This document shows positions 25,898-64,000 of a stretch of DNA of 64,000 nucleotides, piece after piece. The DNA comes from Rhizophagus irregularis (lineage: Eukaryota; Glomeromycota; Glomeromycetes; Glomerales; Glomeraceae), in the NCBI RefSeq assembly GCF_026210795.1, contig NC_089460.1:1550001-1614000 (forward strand). Reading direction: 5' to 3'. Numbering within the stretch: the stretch's first letter is position 1; the number at the start of each line of letters is the position of its first letter. The translations under genes and the position numbers were made by a program. The notes under the pieces were generated by a model. The model ran no database searches. It had not been told where the DNA came from and saw only the letters and a list, made by a program, of their open reading frames with translations.

Positions 25898-28800
25898 ATG
25901 GGTAAAAAAAAGAATACCTCTTCTTCGGTAGAGGAAAAAACAGACCTTTCAGCAATACAAAATATATCTCAAGATACAATATCTTCAACGCTTCGCGAAC
26001 GTTTTCAAAGAGACAACATTTATACTCGCATAAACCATTCCGCACTCATAGCAATAAATCCATACAAAACCCTTCACATCTTCAGTGATTCAACTGTTCA
26101 AGAATATGTTGCAGACTACAAAGACACTTCAGGTCAAAGAGCTACTTTACCTCCTCATTCCTTTCAACTTGCTTCACAGGCTTATTTACATATGAGACGT
26201 ACTGGACAAGATCAGTCCATCATCTTAAGGTAAGTTTATTCTCTCAAAAAAAAAGTGCCCCAAATTTTTTTTCTTAAAAAAAAAGTTACTTATTTTAATT
26301 TTATTTATTAAATTTTTAAATAATAATAGTGGAGAATCAGGTAGTGGAAAATCAGAAACTCGAAAACTTTTGGTTAAACAATTAATTGCTTTAAGTTCAC
26401 ATAACAAGAGCAACAAAAAAGAATCTAGAGTTCAAACTCAAATCCCATTTTCAGAAATTATTTTAGAATCTTTTGGTAATGCAAAAACAATATCTAATAA
26501 TAATGCTTCCCGCTTCGGTAAATATACCGAACTTCAATTTAATGAACGTGGTAGATTAATTGGAGCTAAGACGCTTGATTATCTTTTGGAAAAAAGTCGT
26601 CTTGTTAAAGTTCCCCCAAATGAACGAAATTTTCATATATTTTATTATTTGATCGCTGGAACTTCACAAGAAGAGAGAACGCATCTTCATCTTACTGACG
26701 CTACACAATATCGTTATCTTAATATTCCTAAAGGAACTAGAGCCAATTTAGATGATACAAACAATTTTAATGAATTGAAACAAGCTTTAAAGTCTTTAGG
26801 ATTTCATAAGAAACATGTTGCACAAATGTTTCAACTTTTAGCTGCCATTTTACATTTGGGTAATATACAGTTCACTCAAGATCCTAATAATAATAAACAA
26901 AGGGAAGCAGCTTTAATAAAAAATCAAGAAGTTTTAGATTTAGTTGCGGACTTTTTAGGAGTGGATCCTAAAGCTCTTGAGAATGTACTTACATATAAAA
27001 CCAAATTAATTAAAAAAGAAATGTGTACAATATTCTTGGACGCGGATTCTGCTTCGGTTCAACGTGATGATTTGGCAAAAGCACTCTATTCTTTATTATT
27101 TAGTTGGATTGTAGAATATATTAACACAAAACTTTGTAACGAGGATTTTGCCAGTTTCGTTGGTCTTCTTGATCTTACTGGATTTCAAAATTTAACATCA
27201 AATTCACTTGATCAATTTTGTGTAAATTTTGCAAATGAAAAGATTCACAATTTTATTTTAAAACATATTTTCGATTCACGTCAAGAAGAGTATACAAGTG
27301 AAGGAATTAACGTTCCTGATATAGCTTATTTTGATAATTCAGCATGTCTTCAAATGATTTCTCATCCATCATCAGGATTAATCGCAATTATGAATGATCA
27401 AGCCAACAAATCTTCTCGTAAAACTGATCATACCATGTTAGATGCTTTCAATAAGAAATATTCAGAACATAGTTCTTTTACACCTACTGGTAAAAGTTTG
27501 AATGCTCTTCCTACTTTTGGTATTCAACATTACGCTGGACAAGTTACTTACGACGTCACAGGATTTCTTGAGAAGAATACTGATACTCTTAGTGCTGATT
27601 TTGTTTCTCTATTCCGTGGTGCTGAAGAATCATATAATAGTTTTATTGTTGGTTTGTTCACTGATAAGGCTGTTGCTACAGAATCTCATCCTCGAAATGA
27701 TAATACTATTGTTGCAGCTCAACAATCTGTCAAACCTATGCGTGCTCCATCAATGCGCCGTAAAAAGGGTCAAGAAACTAAGGGACAAGAAACTCCTGAA
27801 ATCTCTTCAAAACCTAAAGTTTCTTGTGTTGCAACTCAAATTTCATCAGCTTTAGATGAACTTTGTGATACACTTGAAGAGACTACTCCTTGGTATGTTT
27901 TTTGTATACGTCCAAATGACACACAGCTCCCTAACCAATTTGATCCAAAAGTTGTACAATCTCAAGTAAAATCATTTGGATTAACGGAAATTGCAAAGAA
28001 ATTACAGTTTGATTATACTATCTCTTTTACACATGAAGAATTTTTAGAGAGATATGAACCTATTTTGGATTCAATGGGACTTGATCAATCAAGGGATCCT
28101 AAAGCTAAATGTGAAGCTTCTTGTACTATTTTTGGTTGGTCAATTTCTGATATGGCTGTTGGTCAAAATAAGGTTAGTTGATTTAGAAAAAGTTATTTTT
28201 ATATTTTATCTATACCATAAACGTATTATCTAATTTAACCAAATTTTAACAGACATATTTAAGTGAAACTGCATGGCGAAACTTGGAAGATAATCTTCGT
28301 AATATAGATAATGAAGAAAAACGTAAAAAGAAAGATAAAAAAGCAGTTACAAGTACAGCAGATGTATCATCTCAACAGTCTTACCCTTCAAATAAAGAAT
28401 TAGATGTTCCTCGCCCTCTTTATTCAAGAGGATTTGATCAAAGATCTTTTGTTTCTGGTGATGATAATCGCTCAAACTTTTCTGATGATGAATACTATCA
28501 AGATGAAGCACTTAGTCAATACGATGATAATGTATCTTCCTATGGTTCAGATGTATACGCGCCTTCACATAATATGTTCAAAGAAATGGAAGCAAAGAAA
28601 ATGTTAAATGAAGAAGACAACGCATTGGAAGAAGCTGAAGAACCTCGCAAAACTACAGCTGCTCGTAAGAAGTGGGTATTTCTTACTTGGTTCCTTACGT
28701 GGTGGGTTCCCCCTTGCTTCTTACGTTGGTGTGGTGGTATGAAAAGAAAAGACATTCAAATGGCATGGCGTGAAAAAGTTGCACTTTGCATAGTTATTTC

Positions 28801-31660
28801 TCTTATTTCTGCTTTTGTCATATTTATTCTCGCTGGATTGGGTAGAATTATTTGTCCAAAAGTTTTTATTTTCACGGCAGAAGAATTATCAACACATAAT
28901 GTTAAAGACAATCCTGATAGTACTTATGTAGCAATTCGTGGAGAAGTTTTTATTTTGAGTACATTTGCCCCTCGTCATTACCCACCTAATTTAGTATCTA
29001 CAGATTCAATTTTGTCATATGGCGGTTCTGATGCATCTAGTTTGTTTCCGGTTCAAGTTAGTGCTCTTTGCAACGGAATTGATGGAAATGTAGATCCTTC
29101 TGTAACATTCGATTTCACTGGCAATGCTACTCAGGATGAAAATGCTAAATATCACGATTTCCGTTATTCTACCAATGATTATCGTCCAGACTGGTATTTT
29201 ACAGAAATTTTAAAGAAAATGAGATCAATTTATCTTGTAGGTCAAATGGCAATACCACCACATATAGTCAAAGAAATGGCAATTAGAGATCAAGACAAAA
29301 GGCAAATTGCTATCATCAATGATAATATTTATGATATAACACCTTATGTAACTGGTGGTCGTCGAGCTATAGATCAAAATGGTCAAAATGTGCCAGGTGT
29401 TAATGTAGATTTTTTGCTTCCTGATATTGTTGGCCTTTTCACAAATTTTAATGGACTTGATATATCAAAAAGCTTTAATAGTTTAAAAATTGATCCTGAT
29501 ACTAGAAAACGTCAAGAAGTTTGCTTGAAAAACTTATTTTATGTTGGGAAAGTAGATCATCGTAACTCACCACAATGCTTATTTGCAAATTATATTTTAC
29601 TCGTATTTTCAGGTATATTGGTTGCTGTTATTGCCTTCAAATTTTTGGCAGCTCTCCAATTAGGCGCAAAACGAGAACCGGAAGAACATGATAAATTTGT
29701 TATATGTCAAGTTCCCTGTTATACTGAAGGTGATGAATCTATGCGTAAAACTTTAGATTCTTTGGCCATATTAAGATATGACGATAAACGCAAACTTTTA
29801 TTTATTGTTTGTGATGGTATGATTGTCGGTAGCGGTAATGATAGACCAACACCTCGTATTGTATTAGATATTTTGGGAGTTGATCCAAATTTAGATCCTG
29901 AACCTCTTAGTTTTCTATCTCTTGGTGAAGGTTTAAAACAACATAATATGGGCAAAGTATATTCTGGATTATATGAATGTAATGGACATGTTGTTCCCTA
30001 TTTAGTAGTAGTCAAAGTTGGTAAACCAAGCGAAAGATCTCGACCTGGTAATCGTGGTAAACGTGATTCTCAGATGGTTCTGATGAGATTTTTAAACAAG
30101 GTCCACTTCAATTGTGAAATGACTCCATTAGAATTAGAAATGTATCATCAAATCAAGAATGTTATCGGGGTTAATCCAAGTTTTTACGAATATATTCTTA
30201 TGGTTGACGCTGACACAGAAGTAATGCCAGACTCATTGAATCGCCTCGTTTCCGCTTTTATGCATGATACTAAAGTAATGGGTCTTTGTGGTGAAACAAC
30301 TCTCGCTAATGAAAAAGATTCTTGGGTTACTATGATTCAAGTATATGAATATTACATATCTCATCATCTTGCAAAAGCTTTTGAATCACTCTTCGGAAGT
30401 GTTACTTGTTTGCCTGGTTGTTTCTGTATGTATAGAGTCCGTACACCCGATTCTCATAAGCCTTTATTGATTGCCAACCAAGTTATTGAAGATTACTCCG
30501 AAAATATTGTTGACACTCTTCATAAAAAGAATTTACTCCATCTTGGTGAAGATCGTTATTTAACAACTCTTATGATGAAACACTTTCCAAATTATAAAAT
30601 GTCATTTGTTCCCGACGCGCAATGTAAAACTTATGCTCCTGACCAATGGGCTGTACTTCTCTCACAACGTCGTCGATGGATTAACTCTACCGTGCACAAT
30701 CTTATGGAATTGGTCTTTTTGCCTCAACTTTGTGGTTTCTGTTGTTTCTCTATGCGTTTTGTGGTCATGATTGATTTGTTTGCCACTCTTATTATGCCTG
30801 CGACTGTTGCATATCTTGGATTTTTAATATACACAATTGTTAAAGATCCAACGACAATTCCAATTACATCTCTAATGTTGTTAGCTGCCGTATATGGTCT
30901 TCAAGCTATTATATTTATTCTCCGCCGGAAGTGGGAACATGTTGGTTGGATGATTGTTTATATACTTGCCATGCCTGTTTTCTCGTTCTACTTACCTCTT
31001 TATGCATTTTGGCATTTTGATGACTTTTCATGGGGTAATACACGCTTGGTTGTAGGTGAGAAGGGCAAAAAATTTGTAGTGGCGGATGAAGGAAAATTTG
31101 ATCCAAAAAGCATACCTAAAAAGAAATGGTCAGATTATGAACAAGAACTTTGGGAAGTCGGTACACAAGGATCACAAGAATCGGCCCATTCAAGAGCTTC
31201 AGATCGTTCATACCGAAGTGGTCGATCCGCTAAAAAAGCTGGTTCTGCCGCTGGATCTGTTGCTGGCGATTATTATGAAGAGCGTAGTAAGAGAAGTCGT
31301 TCTCGGTCACCCGCACCTCCATATGATGATCCAAACAGACCTTATGCTCGCTCTAACTTTGGTGGTGCTGAGATGAGCCAAAGAGGATCAGTGTATGGTA
31401 TTGGACGTGGCGAATATGATGTTTATGGTGCTGGATCAAGACCCGTTAGTTTAATAGAAGGTGGACATGCAGACAGTGACTTCCCCTCAGATGAAGAGAT
31501 TCTTCAAGGAATTCGAAATATATTATCAACAGCTAATTTAATGTCAATTACAAAGAAGCAAGTTCGCGATGATTTATCTCAATCCTTTGGCATGGACATG
31601 AGTGCAAAGAAAGAATATATTAACAATTGTATAGAATTGATCCTCCAAGGAAAACTTTAA
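25898..31660 (+). CDS. Chitin synthase with N-terminal myosin motor-like domain (class V/VII division)
   Basis: Three exons, 25898-26229, 26330-28172 and 28253-31660, encode 1860 residues. The order is a myosin motor-like domain (~1-760), acidic linker, membrane segments, a cytochrome-b5-like part, the GT2 chitin synthase core, a membrane cluster and a DEK C-terminal domain. The motor has P-loop GESGSGKSETRK, switch I NNASRFGKY and a switch-II-like DLTGFQN. The catalytic core has VDADTEV, CFCMYR, LGEDRYLTT and the product-binding QRRRWINS. The last ~55 residues (SDEEILQGIRNILS to the end) are DEK_C. It makes chitin from UDP-GlcNAc at growing tips, delivered along actin and microtubules. Switch II is degenerate relative to true myosins (DIxGFE), as is usual in this class, so strong ATPase activity is doubtful. 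Coding DNA is richer in GC than its flanks. Confidence 0.97.
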
Positions 31661-32275: not shown

Positions 32276-32284
32276 GGTAACGAC

Positions 32285-32547
32285 GCAAAAATATGAATCT
32301 TGACCCGTCACATGGATTAATCTTGACCCACTGCATGCACATTGTCGATCACATATATTTTACAATACACCATGAATAGGATCGACAACGTGCATGCAGG
32401 TGGGTCAAGTTTCACGTACGTGACGCAAAAGTATCGGACTTGACCCTCCTCGTGGTGCTAAGTTGACCCGGTCAATTATGCATGTTTATGCATAACAAAA
32501 AATTGTATTTCTTGACCCGAAATGTGATAATCGATAATGTGATAAAT
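32285..32547 (+). repeat. Left terminal inverted repeat of the MULE
   Basis: It is the reverse complement of 36552-36705 except for a few substitutions and an inserted block (~32312-32415). That block is itself an inverted repeat: CTTGACCCACTGCATGCAC on one side and GTGCATGCAGGTGGGTCAAG on the other. TTGACCC occurs at least six times in either orientation in this arm. Confidence 0.88.
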
Positions 32548-32826
32548 TTAAAATGCTCAATTTCTTTTTTTTTTGTAACACAAGATTTTTTAATCTTTTT
32601 TATTACAGTAACGCGAAACTTTCTTTTTTTTCTTTATTACGCGAAACTTCCTTTTTATTTTTTGTTACATGAAACTTTATTTCTTATCTCGTTTATGACT
32701 CAAAACTTTATTTTTTTTTTATCTTTTTGTGACGCAAAACTTTATCTTTTATTAAAACTTTATTTTTATCATTTTTGTAACGCGAAACTCTATTTTTTTC
32801 TCTTTTTTCCTAGAAATTATCTAAAT
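32548..32826 (+). repeat. Degenerate tandem repeats between left TIR and transposase start
   Basis: About six loose copies of a 25-35 bp unit built around GTAACGCGAAACTTTATTT followed by a T run lie here (for example near 32610, 32640, 32660, 32695, 32730 and 32778). They occupy the transposase leader, so they could be promoter or transposase-binding elements. A frame stays open across them, but the encoded Phe/Leu repeats look non-coding. Confidence 0.6.
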
Positions 32827-35800
32827 ATGAATGATGATTTAATAAAATATAATGATGATGAAACTGTTAATGTACCCTTTGGGCGTGTCGCTGAATGGTA
32901 CATTTCCAAACATCCTTTACTAAAAAATATCAAATTAAAATGCCAAAGTAGAAAAAAAACTCCAGAACTTGTTAAAGAAAATATTATAACTGTTGATCGT
33001 GTTGAGGGAGCTGTAGATTATATTGAATGGAGAACCAATAAAGGAGAAACTAAATCTACTAATAGAATAGATGACATTGTACATCTAACACCTATGGGAG
33101 AAGAGTATGTTAAAGAGATTGAAGCTGGTAAAAGAAAGGACAGGTTATGTTGGTCCTGGACTATGTATTGTGCTGGGGGGAATAGCTGTCAGAGGGAATG
33201 CGGAAATATTGGTAGTTGTAAAGAGAATTGTGCAAATCGTAATTTTCCAAATAATATTAAAAACAGTCATGATATGCATCTTTGCAAAGTGCGTGTTATA
33301 TCAGAATCTAAATTATCATGGTTAAAAACAAGCAAACCACTACGTATTAAAATAATTGGATCTCATTTACCAGCAAATGCATTAAATACTCATATTCCTA
33401 ATAGTTCCAAACTGAACCTTACAAGAGAAATACGGGATAAAATTATTTTAAATAGAAGATCCGATTATAAAACAGTAAAAGAAATTAAAATGACATTACT
33501 TGCACCTTATAATGGTGCAAATGAAGAAACATTACGAAATGTGTTAAATGAACAACGTGAAATTTGTAATGATACTAAATTACGGGGTTTTATTAAAAGA
33601 GATGATAGACGACTAAAAGAAAATTCCGGAAGCTGGACAATTTTACACTATTTAGTTACGGAAATTCTTAAATTAAAGGGTTATGTACTTTATTACCAGC
33701 AGCCGGATCCATTAGCACCGGAAGATCATCCAGATCACTATTATCAATTGACTTTATCAAATGATTTATGGTTAAAAAATGGTCAAAAATTTGGAAATTT
33801 TTGCATAGGATTGGATGGTAAATATGATCTAAATAATGATCATGCTCCAATCTTAACAATGATAGTTGAAAATAATACAGGGTGTGCTACACCATTGGCT
33901 TTTGGTTAGTATATCTGTATATCATTATTTTTTTTATATCAACAAAAAAAAGTATTAAAATTTATTATAGGTTTAAGCAACAAAGAAAATAATTGGACTA
34001 TTCGATTAGCTATTCAAGCAATCAAGCAAAATATTCCCTGTAGTCGTAGTGAATGTAACCATGAATGGTATTACCAAGATTTACCATCCGGAAAGGGGTT
34101 TGAAAGGATTAGTAATTGTGCAAATATACAATTATGGAATCCACTAGCCATGATTGACAAACATCGTCCATCGAGAATTGCTATACAAAGTTTATTACGT
34201 GGATCGATACTTTGTTGGTTCCACATAATGAAAACAATTGGAGAAAATTTTTCGCAATGGAATATTCCTTGGTCAATTCGGTAATTTTAATTTTGTTGTA
34301 AATTTTTTTTTTTAATAATAAAATTATATAATTTTTATTTAAAATAATTTAGTTATCCATTAGCAATAGCGTTCAAGATTGTAGGAAGAAGTAGAAGTGT
34401 CAAACAATGTGAAGAATTAGCTATTGAATACAAGAAATTCATAAATTCTTTGGATTTGGCTAATAATGTAAAACAAAAAATTATAAATGATATTTATAAT
34501 AATTGGATTAGTGATGAGTGGATACTTGGTTTTATCGATGCTGGAAGACTTCCTCAAACTTTACAGGATAATCCAATGACAACTAATAACTTCACAGAGA
34601 GGATGAATCGATCAATTGAGACAAATCATAGCGGAATTAAAACTGTTGTAAATTTTGTTGAAAGATTATATGGACTAAAATTAAATAGAGAAAATATTAC
34701 TGAAAGGTCTGGAGAAACAAGTTTTGAAGCTGGTTTAAGTACTTTATTTGATGCTCAATCTATCGAGCAAGTAAGTAAATTATAATTAATTTTAAATTTA
34801 TTAATTAGCATTTATTTAATTTGACACTATCAATACTATCATACAAGGAAAACCAATCAAAACATATTTCTTCAGACAAGTTAAGACGACTTAATTTGGG
34901 TAGACTCTATTTCTTGATGGGATACGTAAAATCATCAAATAACAACAATTATTTTTATGTAAAAAAACATAATCAATTAAATGTATTAGAATCATCATAC
35001 GATGGAAGTTTTGTGAAAATGGATGATAATATTATTGAAAAGTTGTATCCACTTTATCAAAAATTTGCAAAGAATCATTATAGTGTAGTTCCTGAACTAG
35101 AAGGATATTATTTAACAAATATTTTTAGCGGAGAATGTTTAATATGCCTAGATTATATTTGGAATGGGTCTTTTCGGGATGTGTGTAAGCACTGTCATGC
35201 AGCAAGAATATATAAAGAATCATTAAATGCAGAGAATCTTTTTGATTATTCGCAAGAAGTTAAAAATCAATTGGTGACATATTTTAAGAATAAGGAACGC
35301 GTTATTTCTGCAGAAAATAAAAACAAGTTAATTTATGAAGGAGATACTCATGTGGCTTATAATGAAATTTTAAGATTATTTGAACTTCAAGGTATATTTA
35401 TTCATTTCTTTTCATGATATTTTATTTATATTTAAATATAAATTAATTATTATAAAAAATTTATAGGCACCAAGATCTTTTGGCCAGATAATAAACCATT
35501 GAAATTAAATAGAGATCCTTTTCGTCCAGAATTAAACAATAAGCGTGATTTTAATGCTATTGGAGCTCCGCCGAAACCTTCTGCTAAACCGCGCAAACCA
35601 TCACGAATTTTATGTAATTCTATTTTAGAAGAAGATAAGGAAAATAAGGAAACCTTTTCAACTCAGCAAAGAAAAACAAAACGAACTAGAAGACAAATTC
35701 GTACATATAAGGTAATCATTATTTTTTAAATTATAAAAACCAATCTACTGTTTCACTAATATCTTAATTGCAGGAAAATACTAAGGATAACGGAAATAAC

Positions 35801-36202
35801 AAGAATAATGAAAATAATTTGGGACCATCCGTACCTGATGTTAATTTACCTGCTTCGTATAACATCAAATTTGATTTGAATCCATCTTTTAATTCACAAC
35901 CAACTCTTCAACCTACTCTTTATAATATTCCTTATTATACAAACACCAATACTTCGCTCCCTACTTCAATTTATTCACAATCTACATTCTCTTCAACTAA
36001 TGCGATTCCTAATAGTAATTATACCTCTTTCAATATTCCTCAAGATCAATTGGCCTATAGTTATCCTTCGATTCCAAATGATCTTGGTCAATTTTCCTAC
36101 AATAATCAAATTGAGTTATCCAATTCTTATTCTTATTCATTTAATCAAGCTCCTGATAACAACTTTTCTGATAACAACACGTTTTCTCAAAAGCACTTTT
36201 AG
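32827..36202 (+). CDS. MULE-type DDE transposase
   Basis: Six exons: 32827-33904, 33971-34280, 34353-34770, 34848-35391, 35467-35711 and 35774-36202, giving 1007 residues. An open frame extends up to 32482, inside the terminal repeat; ATG 32827 (MNDDLIKYNDDETV) is preferred because upstream codons are T-run translation. The first part has a Cys-rich cluster (CAGGNSCQREC then CKENC). The catalytic triad reads FCIGLDGKYDL (D330), AMIDKHRPSR (D422) and NNFTERMNRSIE (E545). LCWFHIMK (C441, H444) is the C/DxxH motif characteristic of MULE transposases. A SWIM-like zinc motif follows (CLIC...CKHCHAARIY). The C-terminal ~250 residues are Asn/Ser/Pro-rich and disordered. It should cut and paste the surrounding element. 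All catalytic residues are present and no frame is broken. Confidence 0.9.
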
Positions 36203-36551
36203 TAATCTTGTAACTTACTTTTACTCATCATTTAATGAAATAAATCTATTTCTTATTTTTCGAAGCCTTTAATTTTATATTTTGCGTTCCTAACATAGTG
36301 GAATTTACAAAAACGTTGCATTCTTGCCCAAAAGAATATAAAGTTTTCGTTATAAATGTAAAAAAAAAGTATATAATTATACGTTTCGTTGTAAATGTTG
36401 TATTCTGTACTTAAAAAATTGTATATATAGCCTTTCATTATAAAAAGCCTAAGCATAATTTTAAATACTTTCATGCCAAAAATGTCAAAATTGTGAAATT
36501 AAAATTTGTTAAAAGTTTGTTCAAGTAAACGTTTAATTAATTTATTTTTTG

Positions 36552-36705
36552 ATTTATCACATTATCGATTATCACATTTCGGGTCAAGAAATACAATTTT
36601 TTGTTATGCATAAACATGCATAATTGACCGGGTCAACTTAGCACCACGAGGAGGGTCAAGTCCGATACTTTTGCGTACGTGACGGGTCAAGATTCATATA
36701 TTTGC
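36552..36705 (-). repeat. Right terminal inverted repeat of the MULE
   Basis: 154 bp, matching the left arm from its terminal GCAAA to GTGATAAAT with very few differences. It lacks the 104-bp palindromic block of the left arm and carries four GGGTCAA (TTGACCC) motifs. It is followed directly by the GGTAACGAC target copy. Confidence 0.9.
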
Positions 36706-36714
36706 GGTAACGAC

Positions 36715-39253: not shown

Positions 39254-40395
39254 ATGGCTTTTCTTGAAAAGATTGCTAAACTTGCCATTCCAATTGGTGC
39301 AGCTGCTAGCTTGCTCCAATATAGTATATATGATGGTAAATATTTATTATTACTATTATTTATTTTGTATCAATTGAATAATATTATATGATATAAGTTC
39401 AGGGAGGATTTCGTGCTGTGATTTTTGACCGTATTCAAGGAGTTAAAGAAAGACCAATTGGTGAGGGTACACATTTTCTCTTTCCCTGGTTACAACGTGC
39501 TATTCTATATGATATTCGTACGAAACCTCGCAATATATCTACAACAACCGGATCAAAAGATATGCAGACGGTCAGCTTGACTTTACGTGTTTTACATAGA
39601 CCTGATGTTGACAAATTATCCGAAATTTACAAATCGTTGGGTATGGATTACGATGAAAGAGTATTGCCTTCTATTGGTAATGAAGTTTTGAAATCTGTTG
39701 TTGCTCAATTTGATGCTAGCGAATTGATCACACAGCGTGAAGTGGTAAATAAAATGAAAATAACTTTTTTGTATTATAATTTTATGCTTCTTTATTTACG
39801 CGATTTTATAGTTAAGTTTTATCAATTCCTTTTTTTTGAAATTTTTTTTTAGGTCTCCTCAAAAATACGCGAGGACCTTGTAAAACGATCCAAAGAATTC
39901 AATATTGAATTGGAAGATGTTTCTATTGTATTGTATCTTATTCTATAATATCAAGTATAACAACTTGTTGAATAAATTGTTGACCTATTTGGCTATTCCT
40001 TAATAGACACATATGACTTTTGGTAATGAATTCACAAATGCCGTTGAACAAAAGCAAATTGCTCAACAAGAAGCCGAAAGAGCCAAATTCGTTGTAGAAA
40101 AGGTATGATGTTATTTATTTATATAATATTTTGCAGTAGTCGATTAATTAATTGGGAATGGTTTACTTAGGCTGAACAAGAAAAACAAGCAGCAATTATT
40201 CGTGCAGAAGGTGAAGCTGAAGCTGCAGAAAGAATTTCCAAGGCTCTTGATAAAGCTGGTGAAGGTTTAGTTTTATTACGTCGTATTGAAGCTTCTAAAG
40301 AAATCGCTGCAACCTTGTCTGGTTCACGTGCCGTAACATATTTACCTGGCACTCATTCTGGAGGATCTAATTTACTGTTAAATTTAGGTGTATAA
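39254..40395 (+). CDS. PHB1: Prohibitin 1, mitochondrial inner-membrane scaffold subunit
   Basis: Five exons, 39254-39335, 39398-39744, 39853-39927, 40007-40102 and 40171-40395, encode 274 residues. Prohibitin 1 and 2 form ring complexes in the inner membrane that stabilise new proteins and regulate the m-AAA protease. The N-terminus [20 protein letters not shown] provides the hydrophobic anchor. The SPFH/band-7 domain has [58 protein letters not shown] and [14 protein letters not shown]. The coiled coil is [20 protein letters not shown] onward. Length and order match the family exactly. The exon 2 acceptor (ATATAAG before TTCAGG) was chosen to give DVQGGFRA. Confidence 0.97.
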
Positions 40396-57487: not shown

Positions 57488-59640
57488 GATAGCTGTTGTC
57501 ACACGATGTCGATCATTCGAGCGAAGACAAATATGATTTAGGTAATCTTAAAGATAAGATATATAGTTCTTATTTCCTTTTGGAGGGCCTTCTTAGATAT
57601 TTTATGTATGAATTATTTAAATCTTATCGAATTGTTATAAATACTTTTTGCAATTATGAAACTTAGCATAATTTAGGATAAATCGGATAAATTGATTAAT
57701 AAATCGAAACGTGTATTAATCTTTTAGAAATATATATATGAAAGTAAATTATTTCATATACCTTGCTTACATGGAAAGATAGGAAAACTGTGGCCTTGTT
57801 TAGGTTCTACAGTAAAGTGTTTGTTATTATTATGCCGGTTTTCCGTTTTCCACATTCCCGCATTTGGGACTACCAAAAATCGCAAGTTACTAGGGTATTT
57901 TGAAAAGTAATTTTACTTAAGAAATGCTAATTGTATATTTTAGATTCACCCAAATTTAAATACTTTTTAAACCTTTAACGTTTATTTAAAGGGATCCCAA
58001 ATAATACTAAAAAAAAACTTAGATCTGATTTTATATAAATTTATAATAAATTCTTCAAATGTATAAAGTTATATTAATTTTTTGGCTTCAAATTTTGCTA
58101 TTTTGAAAATTAGTGATTAGATTTTAATGATTTTAGACTTGTTATCTATTTTATCTCTGTAGATAAAATATTTCATTTTAAAATTTTTATTACACAGGAT
58201 CTGAGTTATCTCAGAATTCTATCTCAAACATCATTTTGAAGATAATTAATAACTTTGAATTTAATTTTTATTTTTTTAATAAAACATTTGATATTTTTTA
58301 TTTTTAGATTTCTGGTATTTAGATTGAATTTTAAAGGTAATTTTTTCAAAATTTTTTTTTTTGCTTTTTTTTTGTAAATTTACAGATTTCTGGATTTTTG
58401 AATGCTTTTTAAATGAAATTTTGAAGGTAATTTTCAAATTCTTTTTAAAGAAATGATACTATTATTTCTTTCTTCTTTTTATAAGTTTCAAATTTTTCAG
58501 ATAATAAAAAATTAAAATAATAAATTTTACAACATGCATTTTATTTTAAAACTTTATTATTATTTTTTTATTAAAATATTATTATTAATATTTTATTTTT
58601 TTTTTCACAAGATTTTCACTTTAAATTTATTTTTAACTTCAATAACTTTAACTTTTAAAATTAGCTTAACTTTTTAATCTTTACTTATAAACTCAAAAAG
58701 TTTTCTCCTTTTTACTATTTAAATCATTATTTTATCATGCATTTTTCATTATAAAAAAAGGCTAAACAATCAAAAGTTTATATTTTAATAATTGTTAAAC
58801 ATATTTTTATTTATTTTATTTCTAAATTTTTCTAACTGAGTTATTTAAAACTATTTTATTTTAAAAAAAATTATTTTCTGAGTTTTTTATTAATTGTGAA
58901 ATTAATTATCAAATTCCACTTATATTTATACTTTTTAATGTTTTACCAAAAATTGTAAATCTAAATTAATCATCTAATAATCTTTCAAAAATAAACTTTG
59001 AAAAATAGTTTTTAAACCTTTGGTATAATGTTTATCCTATTACTTCTTACTATTATATCACTGACGTAATAAATTTTAATAATAAATTATTTTAAAAATA
59101 ATTATTGTTTTCATTTTCATTTGTATGATGTATCTTGAATTTACTTTTTCCAATAAAAAATCTAAATATACTGCAATATTAAAAAAAAAAAAAAATAATT
59201 AATTAAAATTACTAAATATTATAAATAACTAAACTATAAACAAATATTATTATAAATAACTGTATAATTATAACTTATTATATTTTTTAATTATTTCAGT
59301 TAAATATTCTTCCTTCAACTAAATATTTAATTTTATTTAGTATATTATAAATCCTTTGAGTAATTATTCTTTTGATTATATAATTATTCTAATATCTAAG
59401 GTTATAATATATAGAGTATTTAATTATATGATAAGCAATTTATAAATTAATAATATTAGATTAATTGTGTAATTCTTTATTTTATATATTTTATATTACT
59501 TTAATTACTTTAATAAATTTATAAATATGCTGTAATTAAAAAAAAAAGTAAAGCAAACTATAAATTATAATTTTAAAAGTTACATAAAACTTATATTAAG
59601 TTTTATTTTAAAAAAAAACTTTATCAAAAATTATTAGAAT
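57488..59640. other. AT-rich intergenic desert
   Basis: No gene. From about 57900 on the sequence is almost wholly A/T with poly-A and poly-T tracts. Degenerate 'AGATTTCTGGATTTTTGAAT' phrases repeat at 58305-58420. No RNA gene recognised. Confidence 0.45.
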
Positions 59641-59834
59641 TACAGTTTAACTTTAATATACCAATATTTGATATACTAATATACTATTAAAAACTTAATA
59701 TACTGAATACTGATAAAATTTTATTTTTTCACTATATATAAGGATATATAAATATTAGTATAACCTTGATATAATGATATTTTTTAAAAATTTCATATAT
59801 ATCCTGACATATTATTATATAGGTTTAATTGTAT
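59641..59834. repeat. Short TA-flanked inverted-repeat element (~194 bp)
   Basis: Left end TACAGTTTAACTTTAATATACC; right end TATATAGGTTTAATTGTA is its imperfect inverse. The end resembles the sequence starting at 5378. AT-rich, no coding capacity. Confidence 0.5.
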
Positions 59835-59924
59835 AGATTTATTTAAAATTACAAATTAATTTTAGTTAGAATTATAAATTTAATTAAAATTATGCTAAAT
59901 TAATTATAATAAATAGTATTATTA

Positions 59925-60120
59925 ATGGTTTAGTTCAGTTTGACTTAAAGCTAAAGTCAAATTAAACCAATTGACTTAGACATTCAAGTTAAATTAATGG
60001 GGTTATTAATATCAGTCTCATCAATTTTTTACCAGTTCCATCAACTTGTCTATCAATCCCATCAACCTTATCAATTTGATTTCATTAACTTAATAGTTAA
60101 GTTGAACTGAACCAAACCAT
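59925..60120. repeat. Short inverted-repeat element with GGTTYAGTTCA ends (~196 bp)
   Basis: ATGGTTTAGTTCAGTTTGAC at the left is matched inverted by TTGAACTGAACCAAACCAT at the right. Between them CCCATCAAC-type phrases repeat (60030-60065). The motif TTTAGTTCAGTTTGAC recurs just outside at 60169-60186. Confidence 0.55.
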
Positions 60121-60184
60121 GACTTAAAAATCTTTAAGTCAAACCAAGTTAACCCTATCAGTCCAATTTAGTTTAGTTCAGTTT

Positions 60185-60784
60185 GACAAGACCCGTTCAT
60201 ATTACCGACAATTATATTACTAACAATCATTTTACCGAAACTCACATTACCGATAATTATTTTACCGACACTCATATTACCAACAATCATTTTACCAACA
60301 GGTATATTTTACCGATACTCATTTTACTGATACTCATTTTACCATTAACACTTACAGTATTTATTACTATTTCACTACCCACTTCAGTTATGAAAATTAA
60401 AATATATATTTAATATAAAAGAATTTACCATAATATATAAAATAAAAAATTGATTAATATATAATAAAATGTAAAATACTATGATATTTATATATAATAA
60501 AATAACTTGAATTTAATATTTAATTTTATAAACTTTATTTTTTAAAAAATTTATTTCAGCTTCATAATATATTGCACTTAGAATTGTTCTTAATAATTTT
60601 CTTAATTTAGTTTATATAATTTGCTTTTTTTTGTAACTTAAAAATGTATTATTATTTTGTCAGTAAAATAATTGTCGGTAATATGATTGTCAGTAAAACG
60701 TACCTGTCGGTAAAGTGAGTATCAGTAAAATGATTGTCGGTAATATAATTGTTGGTAATGTGAACGCAGTCAGTTTGACTTGTC
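60185..60784. repeat. 600-bp foldback element whose arms are tandem TTACCGACAATCATT-like units
   Basis: The left arm (60185-60350) contains about ten ~15-bp units of the type ATTACCGACAATTATTTT or TTTACCGACACTCA. The right arm (60658-60784) carries their reverse complements (GTCGGTAATATGATTGTCAG). The outer ends are GACAAG and CTTGTC. The interior (60350-60650) is AT-rich. The plus-strand frame over the left arm is just translated repeat. Confidence 0.7.
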
Positions 60785-61767
60785 CTTGCATAATGATGGA
60801 ATTTCAGATTAAATTTTAGAAAAATTAATTTTGAAATTATAATATTAATTTTAATATGAAAAAATTTATTTTTTTCCTCCCTTAAATTTAATATATAAAA
60901 ATAACATTATACTAATTATTTGCTAATTATTTTTATAAAAAGAAACAACACTAAAAATTATAATTTCAGTTAATTCAGTTAAATTAAATAATATTTTACA
61001 AAAAATTAATTTTAGTAAAATGAATTTAGAATCCTATATAATATTAATTTTTTAAAAAAAATTGAATAATTTTTACTGAAATTAAATATATAATTCTGGT
61101 AAATTTACATTTAATTTTATTATTATAACTGAAATTTCAGATTTCATAAATTGTAATTTTAAAGTTTTAGTAATAAATTTAAAATAGATAATTTTTAATT
61201 TTTTATTTATATATAAAGTATTTAGATATAATTTATATAATTTTTAAAAAAGTAAATTTTTTTATGCTATTTATTTGATATTGAAAATTGAATAAATAAA
61301 TTTAATAAAAAAACAGGAAAAAAAATTTGTTAAATAAATTAAAATTGACTTTTAAAATTAACTTTAAGTAAATTTGTAAATTGTAATTTGTCTGAAGTAT
61401 AATAACAAGCATAACTAAAGATAACTTTAGTTAGACATATTATAATGCAAGGTATGTTTATCTGAACGTGTAATTAATCATTATTGATTATTATCATGTG
61501 ATCAGATTTTTGGTAATGCATCTGATATATAATTTTAAATGAATACTTTGAACATTACAACAGATCTCATTATCTAGTATAAATAAAAAAAAATATATAT
61601 ATATATATATTAAATTATATTTATTAAAATTTGTTTTTACATAACTTTTTAAAAAAATTATATAATATATATATAAATACCCAGTATAAATTAAGAATTT
61701 TTTTTTAAAATAAATTATTGAAATTAATTTTTTCAAAGTATAATATAGCAATTATATTAAAAATCAG
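60785..61767. other. AT-rich intergenic region
   Basis: No gene recognised; contains a (TA)n run at 61593-61610. The minus-strand frame at 61494-61751 is low-complexity Ile/Tyr/Lys sequence and not credible. Confidence 0.4.
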
Positions 61768-61988
61768 TAAATAAAATTACTAATTAAATTTCAATTACCT
61801 CTAAGTTTAAGATAAAGTTTATATATAAACTTTGTTAAAAATCTTACTATAAAAAGTTTTATATTATATTATTATAATTTTTTTTCTTTTTAGCTAATTA
61901 ACCAATAGATTTAAGCAAATCCTAAGGTAAGGTTTCATATAAAAGTTAAAATTTTCTACAGTAACATTTATTAGTAGTAGATGGATCT
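61768..61988 (-). repeat. Diverged third copy of the 222-bp element seen at 5147 and 6333
   Basis: Read on the minus strand from 61988: AGATCCATCTACTACTAA, then GAAACCTTACCTTAGGATTT, AAATCTATTGGTTAATTAGC and TTATAGTAAGATTTTTAACA. This is collinear with copy A. The right end is too degraded to place precisely and no target repeat is visible. Confidence 0.5.
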
Positions 61989-63296
61989 TAATACAAAATT
62001 AATGGTAAATTTTCCATATAATAAAATACATATAACATATATTCTTATAAAACTTATTATTATTAGTAAATTTTATTCATATATTATTACTATTTCTACA
62101 TAAATATTAGTTATAGATCAAACTGTTACCAATTTTTTTAAACTGAATGATAATCTGTTATTACAGATTGTAATGATAATAATAAATTTAATAGCATTCT
62201 TATTAATTTCTTTTTTAATTTTTACTTTTTCAAAATATTTTTCCTTATTCAAATAATTTGTTTTTTTTATTTAATTCTTCAAATTATTAAGTTAATTTTT
62301 AATTTTCTTATTTTTAAAAATAGGTTTAAAACTTTATCAAATTTTAAAAATCTATTTAAAACTCAATATTGCATTTTATTTTTGTATTTAAAAATAATTT
62401 TAAATAGTTAATAACTATTAGGCCATAATCCAAAATTTTAGTATTCTATTATATAATATTTTATAATGAAATATAATAATAAAATAATTTATTTACTTTA
62501 AAAAGCATCTTTAAAGTATTACTAATAGTTGTTTTTATTTAGCAATAATAATAACTAATAAGTTATATTTTATAAATCCTTCTATATTTTTACAATGTAA
62601 AAAAAATACATTTAAAATATAATTCTAATGATATTTTAAAATATATTTTTATATTACAGTTAAATAATAACAAATAATATGTAATAAGTTATACAGTATA
62701 AATCATATAATTAGTTGTTATTATTATAATTAGTATTTCAAATTTGGCTTGCATAAGACTAAAGATTTATATAAATCCATATAATATATATAATATAGTT
62801 TAAACAATTGATAGGATATACCCTACTGTATAAATAATACTTTAAAATTAACTCAAACTCAACTTAACTTATTAGAAATATTAATTATAGTAAACATCCA
62901 TCTTATTGGAAAATGAACTTATTATCCTTTGAAATCAAAAATGTAACAATCATTGAAATTAATTTAGTTGATTACTTTAGCACTTTTGGAAATATTTGTT
63001 TATTATTTTATCCAGTTAGTTTTTTTGTTAAGTAAATTCAGAAAACTGATAAAAAGAAATATGGCCAAAAGATTTTGGTAAGCAATTTGAAATAGTATTA
63101 TTTTTCTTTATATAATAGTAAATACATATGATGAATAGTTTCACCTATTTTTTGGCTATTTAACATTTTTTCTTTTTTTTATTAAAACCAAAATAAATGA
63201 AAATGAAAACCCTAACAGTTATTTGCCTTCTGCATCAAAATATAATACCAATATAAATTATAATAAACTTGTATGAAAGGCATATTACAAAAGGCA
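61989..63296. other. AT-rich intergenic region
   Basis: 1.3 kb of A/T-rich DNA without a recognisable gene or repeat boundary. Confidence 0.4.
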
Positions 63297-63591
63297 TACA
63301 GTCAACTCTCTATAAATGCACCCTCTATAAATGCACACCCTCTATAAATGCACCTTTTATCTAGTCCCAACTTGGGCCTTAATGCTAAATGCATGGTTTA
63401 TATATATATATATTCTGTAAATGCACCCTTTATAAAAAAATTTTATATAGTTTACTTATAAAAACTTTGTATTACCTTAATTTTAGATTAATATCATATA
63501 GATTTATATGTATTCTATAAATGCACACTCTCTTTAAATGCACTCTTATACCTGGTCCCAAGGGGGATGCATTTATAGAGAGTTGACTGTA
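63297..63591. repeat. Tc1/mariner-type MITE, 295 bp, with CTCTATAAATGCAC subrepeats
   Basis: Left end TACAGTCAACTCTCTATAAA; right end TTTATAGAGAGTTGACTGTA is a perfect inverse over 20 bp. TA flanks both sides. Near the left end CCCTCTATAAATGCA is repeated three times, and TCTATAAATGCAC recurs near 63516. CAGTCAACTCTCTATA is the same terminus style as the element at 5517. Perfect ends suggest a fairly young copy. Confidence 0.8.
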
Positions 63592-64000
63592 TTACAAATT
63601 GCATAAGAAAAAAGAATTTGCTGAAGAAGCAAACAAAATAATTGAGTCACTTAATTAGCTCAGTTTATAAATAAAACTTAATTTGTGAATTTTTTTGTAT
63701 GAGAATTAAATATATAAATAATAATAATTAAATCATATGAATTATAGCTCAGATTTGTTTTATTTAATTACAATTAAATTTGTTTTTTGAATTAGTTATA
63801 CAAATAATTAGCACATTCTCTAAGTGCTGGAATTAATAATTCCTTTTGTGCAATAGTAATATATGCATTGGTACTTAAGAGTGATTGGATTTCTTTTTTT
63901 TTTTGTGTGCATACCGTTCTGAATGTTCCTATAAACAACTATTTTACTTTATCAAAGGTAATATTGTGCTGTGATTTTTCATGTTATTATTACCCTTCTT
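63592..64000. other. Intergenic region to the window edge
   Basis: AT-rich; no gene recognised. Confidence 0.35.

Follow-up and report, generated by a model that had tools for sequence, protein, structure and literature searches.

How many insertion events are recorded around a repeat-flanked transposase gene of Rhizophagus irregularis, and where does the element carrying this gene begin and end? The locus lies within a stretch of 64,000 nucleotides (contig NC_089460.1 of RefSeq assembly GCF_026210795.1, positions 1,550,001 to 1,614,000; G000:C32:1550001-1614000 in the notation used here), referred to below as the window, and positions given without a contig are those of the window. In a first-pass annotation, 32276-36714 had been delimited as one intact Mutator-like element (MULE) with a perfect 9-bp target duplication, GGTAACGAC, on both sides. 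The letters are indeed present, but this duplication belongs to a miniature inverted-repeat transposable element (MITE), designated MITE-A, which encloses the MULE; a second, inner 9-bp duplication, GTACGTGAC, had been missed and the single-element boundaries were given up. The locus very probably results from two successive cut-and-paste insertions, of MITE-A first and of the MULE into MITE-A second, by way of a transposase whose presumed mode of action is outlined below.

The MULE carrying the transposase gene is 4,250 bp long and is bounded by terminal inverted repeats (TIRs) of 123 bp without a single mismatch, each directly abutted by a copy of GTACGTGAC, the perfect target duplication of the MULE itself. 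Deletion of 32425-36683 fuses 32285-32424 to 36684-36705 and restores a palindromic MITE of 162 bp, whose own perfect duplication is GGTAACGAC (Table 1). The near-identical terminal repeats of about 150 bp described at first have two distinct origins: MITE sequence makes up the outer 27 bp or so agreeing on both sides and MULE sequence the inner 123 bp, and on the left side about 113 bp more of the MITE are found before the inner TIR is reached. The chance of a 9-bp match at one set pair of positions is about 1.8e-5 given the local composition, and here two nested pairs match. The locus is read as a nested insertion because both perfect 9-bp duplication pairs are nested and each abuts its own inverted ends.

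Uninterrupted copies of MITE-A were found elsewhere in the genome, searched as a single assembly of 146.7 Mb in 32 contigs; scoring was limited to the best candidates, and the genome copy counts given here are lower bounds. Two such copies, L021 and L022, show the consensus sequence of the remaining copies; the rejoined window copy matches both at 161 of 162 positions, and the three do not differ from each other across the insertion junction. Perfect 9-bp duplications of their own flank the complete copies L021, L022, L024 and L027; at the projected ends of MITE loci they were found in 9 cases out of 20, the rest being shifted, diverged or truncated. MITEs are described as elements of 50 bp to 1 kb with inverted repeats and no transposase (PMC11075540; this and the other articles cited are drawn upon for the parts of their text available to us), and MITE-A has these features, is present in multiple copies and shows target duplications of its own. 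Since MITE-A occurs uninterrupted elsewhere, with duplications of its own, the MITE is taken to have preceded the MULE at this site. No paralogous empty site was found within the genome by whole-genome queries with the 500-bp flanks: apart from its own location, each flank gave a single short match (68 bp at 78% and 46 bp at 88%, respectively) in a search that ignores simple repeats and very common words; the uninterrupted MITE-A copies were used instead. An autonomous element with MITE-A ends was also looked for and not retained: among 23 places displaying such ends (up to three mismatches; the survey leaves out C17:371670), none besides that of the window lies near a transposase match, with the exception of C14:27272-27433 (L028), where a MITE-A, complete and flanked by a target duplication of its own, is situated about 5 kb from one.

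The history envisaged can be stated in two steps. The 162-bp MITE-A would have landed on the downstream side of a chitin-synthase gene and duplicated GGTAACGAC. A MULE of the autonomous type would then have entered MITE-A near its right end, duplicating GTACGTGAC.

Table 1. Features of the nested locus, in window coordinates
Feature	Position	Strand	Evidence
Outer duplication GGTAACGAC, left copy (of the MITE)	32276..32284		direct repeat
MITE-A, left 140 bp, native GTACGTGAC included	32285..32424	+	uninterrupted copies L021, L022
Inner duplication GTACGTGAC, left copy (of the MULE)	32416..32424		direct repeat
MULE, 4,250 bp	32425..36674	+	TIRs and flanking 9-bp duplication; MITE unbroken across the site in L021, L022
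Left TIR, 123 bp; TTGACCC at 32440, 32463, 32512	32425..32547	+	inverted-repeat comparison
Transposase gene, six exons, 1007 residues	32827..36202	+	spliced frame; paralog matches break near same residues
Right TIR, 123 bp; minus-strand TTGACCC at 36653-36659, 36630-36636, 36581-36587	36552..36674	-	inverted-repeat comparison
Inner duplication GTACGTGAC, right copy (of the MULE)	36675..36683		direct repeat
MITE-A, right 22 bp	36684..36705	+	uninterrupted MITE-A copies
Outer duplication GGTAACGAC, right copy (of the MITE)	36706..36714		direct repeat

The MULE had also been qualified as probably recently mobile, which could be upheld in part. The interrupted MITE has diverged from its consensus at only 1 of 162 positions, which supports an arrival of the MULE that would be recent relative to the MITE-A family. 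The genome search for near-identical copies did return one, at C7:22596-26691, with 12 substitutions over 4,084 aligned bases (99%), but this sister copy is broken: it lacks the left 129 bp, is frameshifted by two 1-bp deletions in exon 2 and does not show multiplication of an intact form. Its right end coincides exactly with the inner terminus and no MITE adjoins it. The other relatives among the best candidates scored are at most 91% identical, over parts only. Two full-length relatives measure 3,894 bp (L005) and 3,831 bp (L009), and L003 measures 6,327 bp. At the five amino acid differences between the window and the sister copy, the outgroups favour the window residue at A430 (6 of 6), P790 (4 of 4) and S586 (3 of 4), and at V49 and T868 in 2 of 5 and 1 of 2 cases, respectively. 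The MULE may be active at present. In a related transposase family, L011 (G000:C26:2204500-2209000) and L012 (G000:C31:218000-222400), located on different contigs, differ by 2 mismatches over 4,283 bp; this match extends to the edge of the compared piece, so that transposition and a larger duplication are not distinguishable.

Splicing of five GT-AG introns joins the exons 32827-33904, 33971-34280, 34353-34770, 34848-35391, 35467-35711 and 35774-36202 into an unbroken frame of 1007 residues ending at 36202, in full agreement with the six-exon transposase announced by the first-pass annotation, and D330, D422, E545 and the CWFH (from 441), CLIC (from 699) and CKH (from 715) motifs were all confirmed. 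In several divergent paralogs, the matches are interrupted close to common positions of the protein (residues 360, 463, 602 and 785, approximately). Residue conservation was examined over 14 loci with transposase matches, each denominator being the number of loci covering the position; the near-duplicate pairs L011/L012 and L072/L073 make these counts not fully independent. D330 is kept in 13 of 13 loci, D422 in 11 of 12 (N in L003), C441 in 11 of 12 (S in L010), H444 in 10 of 12 (Y in L009, F in L010) and E545 in 11 of 12 (stop in L002), while the zinc-finger candidates are kept in 11 of 11 (C699 and C702) or 10 of 11 loci (C715 and H717). The protein would be a DDE transposase of RNase H fold, with D330, D422 and E545 as its triad and C441 and H444 in the interval from D422 to E545; a C/DxxH motif in this interval is a feature of MULE transposases. 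The ratio of nonsynonymous to synonymous substitution rates (dN/dS) is 0.15 against L005, 0.23 against L006, 0.16 against L007 and 0.15 against L020, with synonymous distances mostly near saturation, and 0.20 and 0.22 against L003 and L011, respectively. The value of 0.69 obtained against the sister copy has no power and that of 0.62 against the degenerate L002 reflects decay. As judged from these comparisons, the transposase gene is one held under constraint over much of its history.

The element is, by its structure, an intact and newly delimited member of the MULE superfamily, a kind of element already known. Membership is argued from the duplication length, the long TIRs typical of MULEs, the conserved residues and a weak profile match taken together. 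Target duplications of 8-11 bp are given for the superfamily, as are the DDE triad of its transposases and a zinc finger, often of the SWIM type, in many but not all MULEs (PMC6446971); the duplication is of 9 bp and perfect in the window, L005 and L009, and has one mismatch in L003. MULEs of R. irregularis are reported to be recently expanded and expressed (PMC8647823), and families of them are included in a curated library built from nine strains (PMC11075540). The present element is of the same superfamily and species, and the available parts of these two texts describe neither an individual element or its boundaries nor a case of nesting; nor was a description of the window element or of its nested state found in the literature on R. 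irregularis MULEs, as accessible in part and supplementary files aside. MULE-Mucorales (clade 5 in PMC6446971) resembles it in its Mucoromycota hosts, single open reading frame and TIRs, and in a SWIM zinc finger for which the window protein has candidate residues; compared by description, the target duplication listed for this clade is 10 bp long and its TIRs 40 bp, against 9 bp and 123 bp here. Muta1 of Aedes aegypti (PMC5225508) is an active MULE with duplications of 8-9 bp and DDE residues that matter; its activity was demonstrated in yeast, whereas that of the window MULE is putative. In maize and rice, MULEs frequently take part in nested insertions (PMC3903597), but as hosts of other elements, whereas a MULE is found here within a MITE.

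The proposal that this MULE drives MITEs elsewhere in the genome proved consistent with the recurrence of its terminal sequence on MITEs, although the driving itself is something that we infer. The terminal pattern GCAAAANTATNNNNCTTGACCC was found at 60 places of the genome (none for the reversed control) and a paired-motif pattern at 72 (none for its control). TTGACC(C) is located at positions 16, 39 and 88 of the MULE ends, at 16, 39 and 89 on both ends of L005 and L009, at 16, 39 and 89 on the left and 16 and 89 on the right end of L003, and at 16 and 39 on both arms of MITE-A. Over the 22 ends listed, the repeat is present at 38 or 39 in 15 and at 16 in 20, the latter figure being partly due to selection as TTGACC was contained in the search patterns used to find ends; L002 and L004 have no repeat at 39 and display one at 68 or 78 instead. 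These repeats are putative binding sites of the transposase, which would recognize them near each end, cut at the GCAAAA termini and attack the target with a 9-bp stagger. Related MITEs keeping MULE-type ends could be mobilised in trans by the window transposase or by its relatives. MITE-B (L033, L034, L036 and L037; 161 bp) carries the first 22 bp of the MULE, exactly, at both ends, and its copy L033 matches the MULE end at 40 of 45 positions on one arm and 31 of 45 on the other. MITE-B would be the likeliest client of the window MULE; MITE-A may be another, with less certainty. Comparison of MITE-A (L021, L022 and the window) with MITE-B (L033 and L034) revealed nearly identical interiors and different ends, the terminal 37 bp or so looking exchanged on both arms.

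Members of the family have repeatedly inserted immediately next to family ends, and also at a single site of a different MITE-like repeat. Scanning of 118 family-type ends gave 9 rows with another end at most 60 bp outside. Six of these rows are both sides of three junctions (one at L003, two in an array on contig C13) where tandem members share one 9-bp duplication, two are a single outward pair 30 bp apart (L059) and the last (L022) is a weak AT-rich match, taken as chance. At L003 (G000:C23:14499-20958), a 6.3-kb MULE adjoins a 124-bp MITE with the common duplication ATCTGTGAC. The array at C13:5067608-5068523 (L084/L025) is composed of a 557-bp element and, after it, two MITE-A copies, with CCCACAGCG as the separating sequence, the last copy of which is 8 bp; both tandem MITEs carry a base absent from the other aligned MITE-A copies, and the junction between them may be a local duplication. 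Four insertions, two complete (L021 and L024) and two seen from one end only (L008 and L082), are located at AAGTCCCTCAGAT beside AAATATAAA, their common insertion site being CCCTCAGAT in another MITE-like repeat. An extended motif of 26 bp has 214 occurrences in the genome at up to three mismatches (52 exact), against none for the control. When 18 exact instances (range L094-L111) were compared, 11 aligned mutually over about 190-225 bp, L094, L096 and L103 on the one hand and L097 and L109 on the other formed further groups of similar length, L106 shared about 120 bp and L099 aligned only up to about 77 bp; inverted ends are present in L107. AAATATAAA had the look of a promoter motif, but promoter targeting was rejected, the motif being read as part of another MITE-like repeat; the repeated use of one site stands. 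A hand-made list of 24 duplications, 6 of which mismatch once between copies and 2 of which were read from one end, displays a rough symmetric preference resembling NTCWNWGAN.

Other histories of the window locus have to be considered. A single MULE of some 4.4 kb, bounded by GGTAACGAC and irregular in its left repeat, would account for the perfection of this duplication and for the agreement of the outermost 27 bp or so, but the outer ends and the adjoining 113 bp can be put together to the 162-bp MITE that exists uninterrupted elsewhere, the inner ends own a duplication and the sister copy stops at the inner right terminus without any MITE; this view is scarcely credible. The plant tandem-TIR MULEs (PMC3310237) likewise carry two successive terminal repeats per side, and two successive family-type ends per side are what is seen here, as if a second terminal repeat had been gained by duplication or acquisition. 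The available text reports no duplication at the internal TIR of the plant elements, whereas GTACGTGAC is perfect at this locus, and its outer and inner ends come from different families; we give such an origin almost no credence. It is also conceivable, if improbable, that the composite moved as a unit, the MULE having entered MITE-A elsewhere and a 4.42-kb compound having then landed here and created GGTAACGAC: the outer MITE ends and their duplication are intact, the compound could be mobile and the same two duplications are predicted as by the stepwise history, but one extra event is required, no other composite was found among the scored matches and no MITE lies beside the sister copy.

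Compatible with the nested anatomy is the possibility that the MULE is intact but immobile, as the last well-preserved member of a family that is silenced or dying out. The lack of another intact near-identical copy among the scored matches and the state of the sister, frameshifted in exon 2 and deprived of its left end, would be expected in this case; the single base separating the interrupted MITE from its consensus, the perfection of both duplications and of the TIRs, the integrity of all candidate residues and the outgroup support at A430, P790 and S586 (but not so at V49 and T868) would not. We regard immobility as a serious possibility, somewhat short of even chances. Several observations also weigh against two successive insertions operated by a MULE transposase. 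The genome search, within the best candidates scored, yielded no second intact near-identical copy of the MULE, and MITE-A matches the MULE end at just 29-30 of the first 45 positions. The Pfam MULE profile PF10551 scores 19.7 bits in the window protein, below its cut-off of 27.6, and in four paralogs 27.9 (which passes), 20.6, 17.1 and no match. Pfam calls no SWIM in the window protein, only a weak RING match of 12.8 bits, and among the four scanned paralogs SWIM appears in L005 only, at 12 bits and under its cut-off of 19.6.

The nested MULE and MITE are located between conserved genes, with myosin-head and chitin-synthase frames (26370-31660) on one side and a Band 7 frame (39418-39852) on the other. 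The myosin-head frame occupies 26370-28178 and the chitin-synthase, cytochrome-b5 and DEK_C domains 28283-31657, ending about 600 bp before the MITE; these frames are probably one myosin-chitin synthase gene. Further along the window, the G+C content of 58001-64000 (0.145-0.198) is lower than in the rest. At the scale of the genome, 11 of 37 terminal-pattern loci are found at most 200 kb from a contig end where 3.2 are expected (P ~2e-4), after dropping 13 loci embedded in a larger repeat (14 of 50 when these are retained). At 50, 100 and 300 kb the counts are 5, 5 and 11 (P 0.001, 0.02 and 0.006); the thresholds are post hoc and telomere repeats are present at just 6 of the 12 contig ends inspected.

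As the locus shows, annotation can be led astray by a perfect duplication when its two copies are plausibly spaced. The MULE found here has precise limits and looks intact, and the order of events is known, the MITE preceding the MULE on the simplest reading; the locus allows three possible states in other strains: empty, MITE only, or MITE and MULE together. Owing to the shared ends and the regularly spaced TTGACC repeats, a link of several MITE families to one transposase can be tested directly. The nested structure is also the one from which tandem-TIR MULEs have been proposed to arise by nested insertion. A speculative extension, to which we attach a low probability, is that a MITE was re-armed here by taking up an intact MULE that belongs to the same wider family, giving a 4.42-kb compound in principle mobile as a unit, and that such compounds may arise by target choice and not by accident. 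If this is true, the compound, bearing MITE ends on its outside and MULE ends within, would show the tandem-TIR route as it occurs in nature, at a stage preceding the loss of the internal duplication.

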